DNA from: Termitidicoccus mucosus
GTDB taxonomy: Bacteria > Verrucomicrobiota > Verrucomicrobiia > Opitutales > Opitutaceae
Assembly (NCBI RefSeq): GCF_038725785.1
Contig: NZ_CP109796.1
Coordinates: 2,790,001-2,854,000 of the forward strand
Reading direction: 5' to 3'
DNA: 64,000 nucleotides
Below are positions 4,658-54,136 of this stretch, one piece after another (position 1 is the stretch's first letter; every line of letters starts with the position of its first letter). The notes below the pieces were generated by a model. It made no database searches, was not told where the DNA came from, and saw only the letters and a list, made by a program, of their open reading frames with translations. The position numbers were made by a program, and so were the translations under genes.

Positions 4658-4738
4658 TGGAGGGCCGAGCTCCCGCGAGGCCGTCGCGGTTGGACGCGAC
4701 GTTTTCCGGCGACGGCCTCGCGGGAGCTCGGCCCTCCA
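4658..4738. repeat. Palindromic element, family A copy 1
   Basis: This 81-nt near-perfect inverted repeat starts TGGAGGGCCGAGCTCCCGC and ends with its complement. It sits 9 nt after the rnr stop. A second copy is the core of the composite element at 24438-24578 after dnaJ. Confidence 0.9.
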
Positions 4739-16637: not shown

Positions 16638-16879
16638 CCATTTCGCATTCAAACGTATAATAAGGGAGGGACGACCTCCGTGTCGTCCTTTCGCTCCGAA
16701 GCGGACGACACGGAGGTCGTCCCTCCAAAAGCCCATGGTTATAATATTTTCGATTAACATTGGCGCGGCAGTGCGGTAGGGCGAAGCCTCCGGCTGAGCC
16801 GCGGCTCGGCGGGGACGCCTCGCCCTACCATTTGCGCCAATGTTGAGAGAAATACTATATACGTTTGAATGCGAAATGG
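16638..16879. repeat. Nested composite palindrome containing families C and E
   Basis: Exact 22-bp inverted outer arms (16638-16659 and 16858-16879) enclose two separate hairpins. The first, 16665-16726, is family C (GGAGGGACGACCTCCG and complement). The second, 16756-16844, has arms AACATTGGCGC / GCGCCAATGTT around the family E core GGTAGGGCGAAGCC...CGCCCTACC at 16776-16829. The right outer arm ends 2 nt before the stop codon of the next gene. Confidence 0.9.
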
Positions 16880-17617: not shown

Positions 17618-17755
17618 TTGATGATATAATATAGTGTTTTCATTTAATATTGGCGCGGCAGCGCCGGTAGGGCGAAGCCTCCGGCTGAGCCGCGGCTCGG
17701 CGGGGACGCCTCGCCCTACCTTTTGGGACAAGGTTGAGAGAAAATACTATATGCG
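17618..17755. repeat. Family E palindromic element, copy 2
   Basis: The core at 17666-17720 (GGTAGGGCGAAGCC...CGCCCTACC) is nearly identical to 16776-16829. The flanks ATTGGCGCGGCAG and GTTGAGAGAAA(A)TACTATAT also match. A small hairpin GGAATGTA...TACATTCC lies at about 17513-17538. The rest of the 329-bp gap holds no gene. Confidence 0.85.
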
Positions 17756-24438: not shown

Positions 24439-24578
24439 TACCGTTTGCCTATGATAATCAGCCCCATGGAGGGCCGGGCTCCCGCGAGGCCGTCGCGGTC
24501 AAACGCGACGGTTTTCGGCGGCGGCCTCGCGGGAGCCCGGCCCTCCATCAAAAGTCGGACTTCTTTCGTGAGCGGTAT
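24438..24578. repeat. ATACC...GGTAT composite element with family A core
   Basis: Outer ends ATACCG / CGGTAT enclose the 83-nt family A palindrome 24466-24548 (ATGGAGGGCCGGGCTCCCGC and complement). The right flank (CAAAAG, then TTTCG, then GGTATAA) matches that of the element at 7450-7595, which carries a different hairpin core. Confidence 0.85.
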
Positions 24579-42720: not shown

Positions 42721-43989
<1,269 letters not shown>

Positions 43990-43990
43990 G

Positions 43991-44099
43991 GGGAAGAATG
44001 CGGAATTCGGAATGCGGGGCGGGGAAATGCGCGTGATTTTCGCTGGTGGTCGGAACAGCTGGATTTCATTCCGAAATCCGCATTCCGAATTCCGCATTT
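43991..44099. repeat. Family H repeat, copy 3
   Basis: GAATGCGGAATTCGGAATGCGG at the left and CCGCATTCCGAATTCCGCATTT at the right enclose a GCGTGATTTTCGC spacer. The right arm supplies the last codons and stop of the SGNH hydrolase gene. Confidence 0.8.
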
Positions 44100-51859: not shown

Positions 51860-52040
51860 TGACACAGAGGTCACGGAGCTCGGACACAGAGGCCACGGAG
51901 GCCGGGTTGGTATTTATGGCTTTGCAGGCTTGGCGGATGGTTTTTGTTTTTATTTTGAAAGGAGTTTCGGGTGCGGGGAAAAAGCGAAGTCTTGCGGGCC
52001 TCCGTGCCCTCTGTGTCGGAGCTTTGTGTTCTCTGTGTCT
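51860..52040. repeat. GACACAGAGGCCACGGAG palindromic element (family M-like)
   Basis: GACACAGAGGTCACGGAGCTCGG and ACACAGAGGCCACGGAGGCC pair with GGCCTCCGTGCCCTCTGTGTC and GTTCTCTGTGTC about 95-130 nt away. It fills the gap between the FAD oxidoreductase and GxGYxYP genes. Confidence 0.75.
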
Positions 52041-53901
52041 ATTGATTATTTCCCAAGTTGGCTTGGACGCGGCGGAAAAACTCGTCGGGCGCGACGACCT
52101 CGACGCCCGGGTCGAGGCGGGCGGCGAGCGCGGCGACGTCGGCGACGGTGTGGGTCCAGACGTGGACGACCACGAGTGAGTATCCTTTTTCCGAATACGG
52201 ATCGCGCGGGGCCCGGTTGAGGCGGGCGGCGACGGCGTCGGGAGAGTTGCGCGAGGGTTTTGCGGGCGTGGATGCGTGATGGCCCGAGCCCCATAGCTGC
52301 ATGGCGGCGGAGACCACGGGCTTGCCGCGCGCCCAGACGATGCGGCCGCGGTATTTGTCGTAGGGCGCGTAGTCGAAGTAGATGAGGCCGTCGATGTTGG
52401 GCTGCGAGAGATAGGCGTCCCAGAGGTCGGTGCGCTCGAAGGCGTCGTTGTCGATGATCTGCACGAGGCGCAGGTCGGAGAGGCCCATGAGGCGGTTCAA
52501 CTCCGCGCAGTGGGCGGCGAGCGCGCCGGGAGGCATGAGGCTGGGATAAAAGTATCCGTTGCCGGAGGGACCGACGATGAAGTGGTCGCGGGGCAATGCG
52601 GAATGAAGGGACATGGTCGCCGGGTGCGCGCTGGAGTCTCTTGTTACTTGATACTTGTCACTTTCCACTTCCGCGACCGCGGTCGCGGCCTGGTCGTAAT
52701 ACCACTGCATCACGCCGGGCGCGAACTCGGCCAGCGCGGGGGCCATGCCCCAGCCGAGCGGCACCTGGCCGCGGGCGGGACTGGCGAACCAGCGGTCGTT
52801 CACCGGGCAGTCGAAGAGCAGCCAGCTCATGTTGTCGCCGTCGGAGAGGACGAAGGTGACGGTGTGTTTCTTGGCGGGCTTTTGGGTGGATTTCGCCGTG
52901 CGCGTGGCGGAGCCTTTTTGTTTCAGGCCTCCGTCCGGCACCGGCAGGCTGCTGAGCACGGAGAGGTTTCGCGCGTGGTCGGAGGGGATGAGCGGAAGGC
53001 CGAGGCGCGACACACGGCCGATGAAAGTCTGCTCGTCCTCTTTTTCGCCGTCGCCCCAGCCGAGGATGAACGGCAGCGCACCGGCGCGGGTGGGCTGGCG
53101 CGCGCGCGCGGCAAGGCGTGTCTCGGATTCGTCGGCGGGATTGCCCTTGCCGCTGGCGGGGGCGGGAACGACTTGCGCGTTGGCGAGCACGGCGTAGTCG
53201 CGGGCCTGCCAGACTTGGCCGGGGGGCTGGGAGACGATGATATCGGGGGTGGTTGCGGCGTGTAGGGCGCGACCTTGCGTCGCGCCGGGATTGGAAGGGC
53301 ACGCGGACAGCCTGGGACATTCGCGGCCTGACGCGAGGTCAGGCCCTACGTTGGCGGTGCCGGCGTTCGCCTCCGCGAGCGCGCGGTCGAGCCAGGCGTA
53401 GTCCTTTTCGCGGGTGTCGTGGAGTTGTTGCCAACCGAGCGAATCGGCCAGCGACTGGAGCGGTTCGTCGATGATGATTCCGCGCAACGGCCCGGCGAGC
53501 GTGCCCGCGAGGGCGAGCGAGCGCTGGTCGGCGGCGCGGCAGAGCAGATAACCGGCGGGCGCTTTGGCAAAATGGGCCAGCAGCGCGCGGCAGGACGCCG
53601 CGTCCTCGACCTGCGTGCCATGGGTGGTTTTCAGGATTTCGAGCCAGTGTTTGTAACCGGCCGAGCCGTCATCGAGGTAGAGGTTTTCCGCGCTGTCCTT
53701 GGCGAGGATGCCTTGGAGGGAGGTGAGCGCGATAAGCTCGGGTTTGGAGAGACGCGTGTGCGCGATGCGAAACAATTTCGCGGGCGGCGTGCCTTTCGGG
53801 GGTGTGGCCGCGGAGACAAAAGCGAATGTGTTCATGAAAAAAATGACCACAAAAACGAGACTGGCGGCGATGCGGCATCGGGCGCCGAAAGCGACTTTCA
53901 T
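52039..53901 (-). CDS. GxGYxYP domain putative glycoside hydrolase with two in-frame repeat inserts
   Basis: The 620-aa exported protein starts MKVAFGARCRIAASLVFVVIFFMNTFAFVSA. The middle has TVTFVLSDGDNMSWLL, RGQVPLGWGMAPALAEFAPGVM and the eponymous GPSGNGYFYPSLMP, which define the GxGYxYP family of putative glycoside hydrolases. Residues about 185-213 (VGPDLASGRE...GATQGRALH) are translated family I repeat and about 410-420 (SDKYQVTRDSS) translated family K repeat; neither belongs to the family. The enzyme's substrate is unknown. It is the first gene of the minus-strand cluster, divergent from cstA. Confidence 0.87.
   Translation of the reverse strand: MKVAFGARCRIAASLVFVVIFFMNTFAFVSAATPPKGTPPAKLFRIAHTRLSKPELIALTSLQGILAKDSAENLYLDDGSAGYKHWLEILKTTHGTQVEDAASCRALLAHFAKAPAGYLLCRAADQRSLALAGTLAGPLRGIIIDEPLQSLADSLGWQQLHDTREKDYAWLDRALAEANAGTANVGPDLASGRECPRLSACPSNPGATQGRALHAATTPDIIVSQPPGQVWQARDYAVLANAQVVPAPASGKGNPADESETRLAARARQPTRAGALPFILGWGDGEKEDEQTFIGRVSRLGLPLIPSDHARNLSVLSSLPVPDGGLKQKGSATRTAKSTQKPAKKHTVTFVLSDGDNMSWLLFDCPVNDRWFASPARGQVPLGWGMAPALAEFAPGVMQWYYDQAATAVAEVESDKYQVTRDSSAHPATMSLHSALPRDHFIVGPSGNGYFYPSLMPPGALAAHCAELNRLMGLSDLRLVQIIDNDAFERTDLWDAYLSQPNIDGLIYFDYAPYDKYRGRIVWARGKPVVSAAMQLWGSGHHASTPAKPSRNSPDAVAARLNRAPRDPYSEKGYSLVVVHVWTHTVADVAALAARLDPGVEVVAPDEFFRRVQANLGNNQ
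52640..52672. repeat. Family K repeat, copy 3, translated in frame
   Basis: CTTGTTACTTGATACTTGTC, then ACTTTCCACTTCC, related to copies at 4774 and 9258. On the minus strand it encodes ESDKYQVTR within the GxGYxYP protein. Confidence 0.75.
53262..53349. repeat. Family I palindrome, copy 2, translated in frame
   Basis: An 88-nt element with ends GTAGGGCGCGACC and GGTCAGGCCCTAC, flanked on both sides by GT. It is similar to 43110-43200 and is read in the same frame, as VGPDLASGRE...GATQGRALH. Confidence 0.9.
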
Positions 53902-54136
53902 GCGTGGAGAAAAAGAGGTGATGCGTGAGTAAGGCATGAAGGGGATTCCGGGTAAAGCGACTGACATAGGTCGGAATATTTTCACTTTGTCAAAGTTTTT
54001 CTGAGAAAAAGCATATTCCCGGCTGGAGACAGGCATGGGCAATCCTTGATTGATCAATATCTGAACGAAAATTGGTGAGAATAGCGGCTATTTCGGAGGA
54101 TTCATGGAGCGTCGGCATCCCCGCTGCCCTTGCTTT

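Follow-up and report, generated by a model that had tools for sequence, protein, structure and literature searches.

An 88-nt element at positions 53262-53349 of the window analysed lies in frame in a gene for a putative glycoside hydrolase of Termitidicoccus mucosus. It is very probably a REPIN, a non-autonomous mobile element inserted in frame and probably spread by the RAYT encoded at G000:C1:275578-276210 (G000:C1 being the chromosome under study). Elements of its kind, built of two hairpins with covarying stems, are dispersed in this chromosome; the RAYT gene has REPs of this type on either side, and the closest homologues of the host protein lack the insert. The window is a stretch of 64,000 nt, positions 2,790,001-2,854,000 of the forward strand of NZ_CP109796.1 (assembly GCF_038725785.1), from a member of the Opitutaceae (Verrucomicrobiota; Verrucomicrobiia; Opitutales).

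Structure of the element

The element, read on the plus strand, is a head-to-head dimer of GTAG-REPs. Matches to the arm pattern delimit a REP of subtype GC at 53262-53286 (plus strand; GTAG and the hairpin GGCGCGAC-CTTGC-GTCGCGCC) and one of subtype CT at 53325-53349 (minus strand; GTAG and the hairpin GGCCTGAC-CTCGC-GTCAGGCC), with a spacer at 53287-53324 separating them; the arms correspond to G000:C1:2843262-2843286 and 2843325-2843349. In general form an arm consists of GTAG and, after it, a hairpin with an 8-bp stem and a 5-nt loop, GGCNNGAC-CTNGN-GTCNNGCC, whose NN stem pairs vary jointly (GC/GC, CT/AG, TC/GA, CC/GG).

The REP copies of the genome were analysed as loci (given L-numbers), among them 44 dimers of inverted, head-to-head REPs with a short spacer and GTAG outermost at either end; 35 are heterodimers. 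GTAG stands 5′ of the short hairpin, and 697 of 704 stem cells are paired, counting G-U. Stem pairs 8-22 and 9-21 alternate among C-G, G-C and T-A over the 44 dimers, and their variable bases find a partner in their own arm in 173 of 176 cells, whereas pairing between arms would be possible in only 88 of 176. Because stem bases covary within arms and not between them, the conserved structure is two hairpins, and a single long palindrome is ruled out. A sequence-only reading of this DNA had described a "family I" palindrome in frame in the GxGYxYP gene: the in-frame element is there, the single palindrome is not. Rfam gave no match across the 42.5-54.5 kb portion of the window.

Copies in the genome and a candidate transposase

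With a pattern for one arm, allowing up to two mismatches, we found 107 REP units in the chromosome and 0 with the reversed pattern as control; the 88-mer itself has 50 matches there at E<=0.001. Chance is excluded by these numbers, as is the absence of other genomic copies, which the sequence-only reading had named as a finding that would count against it. A genome of the same genus, G001, holds very few copies. The largest number among 150 genomes belongs to G115 (genus g3 of the family), whose 449 exact matches to the REP pattern lie far above any other.

The RAYT (TnpA-REP, a Y1/HUH single-strand transposase) has 211 aa, scores above the NCBIfam cut-off of NF047646 (REP-associated tyrosine transposase), and shows by eye a DHAHLL (HUH) motif. 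REPs of the element's type flank it on either side (275491-275569 and 276199-276259). Beyond the genus the most similar homologue, that of G018 (58% identity), ends 13 nt away from such REPs. The genome has seven Y1_Tnp matches; the enzyme at this locus is the presumed active one among them, by which the REPINs are probably spread, and it would mobilise them as single-stranded DNA.

Some REPINs lie within a larger, MITE-like palindrome, TAGAGCATTTCCTATTTATTCTGTCGCA...TGCGACAGAATAAATAGGAAATGCTCTA, with TA at either end (G000:C1:237906-238037, 1806684-1806820 and about eight more; loci L068, L078, L089, L091, L098, L100, L111, L114, L116 and L121), which points to another mobile element as a carrier of REPINs. 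A search for empty copies of these carriers found no clean one lacking a REPIN. A second larger palindrome, ACTGATGTTACGCG...CGCGTAACATCAGT, contains REPINs of 83-85 nt (G000:C1:1783288, 2486633, 2895309, 5252984 and 5261383; loci L077, L086, L087, L109 and L110). At the RAYT locus one flank comes from each of these two larger repeats. The window also holds another GTAG...CTAC palindrome of 53 nt, in two copies 891 nt apart with similar flanks (16776-16828 and 17667-17719), and a further family of 81-nt palindromes, TGGAGGGCC...GGCCCTCCA, at 4658-4738 and 24467-24547 (90% alike).

Ends of the mobile unit

The 53-kb copy has GT at 53260-53261 and again at 53350-53351, as the sequence-only reading had noted and ascribed to a 2-bp target duplication. 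Among 45 dimers, only two have identical flanking dinucleotides, where about 3.3 are expected by chance, and none has a repeat of 3 nt or more; GT/GT is therefore best read as chance, and the duplication falls away. The same counts bear on the idea of an ordinary MITE that depends on a DDE transposase and duplicates 2 bp of its target on insertion. The GT pair would suit it, as would the REPINs inside larger palindromic repeats with TA ends, but the short terminal direct repeat that it calls for is not seen in the dimers at large, and the 43-kb copy is flanked by AT and GG. Moreover single REPs occur alone, in frame too, and pairing of the variable stem bases is internal to each arm rather than across the two; we give such a MITE hardly any credence.

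For a RAYT-mobilised REPIN, the end bases and lengths suggest another boundary. Of 101 units, 95 have a pyrimidine before GTAG, and in this chromosome A often follows CTAC. The in-frame dimers come in many lengths, ten of the 11 being 1 mod 3 (the exception has 72 nt), compared with 17 of 34 other dimers, a moderate excess (Fisher P=0.016). From the pyrimidine and the in-frame lengths, the transferred unit probably takes in one base per side, making it 90 nt here and 93 nt at 43 kb. On these grounds, and with no target duplication, the putative mobile unit Y-GTAG...CTAC-R would span 53261-53350, and such units would be transferred without duplicating the target. The net insertion would be of 30 codons; the 672-aa reading frame stays open, bearing out the earlier statement that insertion preserves the frame.

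We searched for empty sites with joined flanks, using 16 sites of T. mucosus (mostly in frame) against relatives and 16 more in G001 and G002, together with sites of G002 against T. mucosus and G001, and of G109 against its genus. Relatives either lack the insert or have other sequence at the same linkers, which are hypervariable. G001 is without insert at site 289182 and G013 is without a REPIN at the GxGYxYP linker, neither with a readable exact junction, while the G001 contig with the orthologous GxGYxYP gene begins beside the insertion point. None of these searches of relatives gave a junction precise enough to fix the boundary. The comparison that the sequence-only reading had proposed for defining the insertion thus found empty or differently filled alleles and, in hypervariable linkers, no exact boundary.

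Host genes

The host reading frame of the 53-kb copy (52039-54057, minus strand) encodes a putative GxGYxYP glycoside hydrolase of 672 aa, in whose frame the element is stop-free and reads as 30 residues (237-266) of the type VGPDLASGR...GATQGRAL. These fall between the Pfam domains GxGYxYP_N_2nd (169-223) and GxGYxYP_N_3rd (273-370), in a region (residues 226-280) of pLDDT <50 in an AlphaFold2 model made from 20 sequences. In the orthologue of the nearest relative (L158:1-480, G001:C376), the linkers carry long Ala/Asn/Thr/Gly insertions of low complexity.

The second copy in the window, 91 nt at 43110-43200 (plus strand), lies in a UgpC/MalK-type ABC ATPase of 458 aa (42721-44097, minus strand), close to where the OB_MalK fold starts. 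It is read in the same frame, as 31 residues, and the peptides of the two copies are indeed nearly alike, as had been claimed. Gene duplication as origin of the common peptide was rejected: the other matches of the GxGYxYP protein in its own genome are REP-derived stretches only. A GTGG-type inverted repeat at 43043-43106, assigned by eye only to a different family, lies next to the 43-kb REPIN in one ORF; it too is in frame, with the peptide GTGVPPV...GRVARAT, and similar neighbours occur at G000:C1:2133596 and 3600229. Both window copies are intragenic, not extragenic as the name REP has it; this is no bar to membership, since the name gives the usual place, and Di Nocera et al. (2013; PMC3733652) accept intragenic units as belonging to the family.

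Protein genes of T. mucosus carry 16 in-frame copies, 11 dimers and five singles, counting both window copies; the dimers and four of the singles were assigned to genes with a codon-usage model trained on the genes of these loci. The hosts named are UgpC, YjeF, MFS, GH2/LacZ, HrpA, M16 peptidase, GltB (glutamate synthase), GxGYxYP, lipoyl E2, GH106, a GDSL/heparinase protein, autotransporters and UvrA, the last with the fifth single; G002 adds a case in RecD2. Most inserts lie between domains or at domain edges, usually in linkers. Three genes of autotransporter type have REPINs with differing spacers at one linker before the beta-domain (L101, L105 and L120; G000:C1:4481504, 4821962 and 7745665); with these three paralogues among the 11 dimers, counts over in-frame dimers are not fully independent.

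Most likely the in-frame REPIN is tolerated rather than useful, and inserts would survive in genes only where a flexible linker receives them, the frame is kept and the peptide is mild. Domestication would instead make the peptide or RNA hairpin functional in the host gene, as linker, translation pause or mRNA stabiliser. The hairpin has a strong predicted fold in the host mRNA (about -45 kcal/mol), and the in-frame REP of UvrA is common to two species, the G002 orthologue reading AGPDLASGR. Yet the host proteins are unrelated, orthologues have no insert or other sequence at that linker, and G001, of the same genus, has very few copies, so that we regard domestication as very unlikely.

Reading-frame preference

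We denote frames by orientation (A where the sense strand meets the CT-type REP first, B where the order is reversed) and phase (digit). The sequence-only reading had supposed a single stop-free frame and proposed testing all six; the check finds three open, A0, B0 and B2. Nine of the 11 dimers in frame take A0, the reading VGPDLASGR...GATQGRAL, for which P=0.005 if an element's open frames were all used equally often; all five in-frame singles take it as well. The other two dimers, of one 76-nt subfamily and in two other genes, use B2. Frame choice is accordingly non-random, as the sequence-only reading had suspected; the selection to which it was attributed is plausible and unproven.

Over five elements the peptide charge is 0 to +2 in A0, +3 to +7 in B0 and +1 to +6 in B2. 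The lower charge of A0 makes selection on the peptide plausible, and the strong over-representation of A0 is most likely due to B0 and B2 readings usually being more basic.

The preference might instead arise from insertion-site bias without protein selection: the pyrimidine before GTAG would favour sites after third codon positions, where GC-rich genomes often have C; the flanks on the CT and GC sides also differ. Besides the frequency of that pyrimidine, CT/GC dimers outside the MITE-like carriers are in keeping with it, the base on the CT side being C in 10 of 13 and that on the GC side A in 8 of 13. However, MITE-borne and intergenic copies share those flanks, which may therefore belong to the element, and placing L nucleotides between target bases would keep the frame only for L=0 mod 3, whereas L=1 mod 3 holds for 10 of 11. 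Bias as the whole explanation seems to us rather doubtful, although a target-base preference at third codon positions may contribute in part to the frame preference.

A bolder proposal, which we think unlikely, is that the lineage has evolved to be protein-compatible, with stems, spacer length and end bases tuned so that L+2 is divisible by 3 and one orientation gives a stop-free, near-neutral linker peptide. If it were true, genes would be open to a RAYT element as places to land. In the portions of the literature consulted, among them portions of Di Nocera et al. (2013), neither frame-preference nor L+2 statistics turned up.

Relation to known systems

Rickettsia too has palindromes that persist in frame in protein-coding genes unrelated to one another, the Rickettsia palindromic elements (RPE), and by this description the T. 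mucosus elements resemble them. The T. mucosus elements differ in carrying a GTAG tag and having a RAYT in their genome, whereas the 2013 survey classes RPE-4 and RPE-6 of R. conorii with CGTC repeats, for which no dedicated transposase is known (PMC3733652).

In that survey GTAG REPs inside ORFs were described as encoding 20-30 aa, and Opitutus terrae as having the most intragenic GTAG repeats, both uvrA genes included (Di Nocera et al., 2013). Our elements share with these GTAG-REPs the tag, short hairpin, head-to-head heterodimers with a spacer, dispersal, a RAYT nearby and intragenic units; the genome is different, and the likeness drawn to the 24 families is one of anatomy. Bertels and Rainey (2011; PMC3116915) recognized the REP doublet as a replicating unit that forms hairpins and proposed that a RAYT acts in trans; the T. 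mucosus elements are likewise REP doublets with hairpins, but that evidence came from Pseudomonas fluorescens SBW25, and in T. mucosus many units lie inside genes. Other TnpA-REP enzymes cleave at CT or CA beside REPs in vitro (PMC8266576). As in that REPtron, T. mucosus has a Y1/HUH enzyme with cognate GTAG-REPs, and the pyrimidine before GTAG and the A often found after CTAC are alike, although its RAYT cleavage sites, unlike those determined biochemically, are inferred only.

In-frame intragenic GTAG REPs are thus already known as a kind, of which the T. mucosus element is a further member. It offers a RAYT-linked case outside Rickettsia in which small mobile DNA has repeatedly lengthened proteins at linkers, with a frame preference that can be measured. 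Peptides such as VGPDLASGR or GATQGRAL in proteins of the Opitutaceae should be taken as translations of a mobile element, not as conserved motifs.
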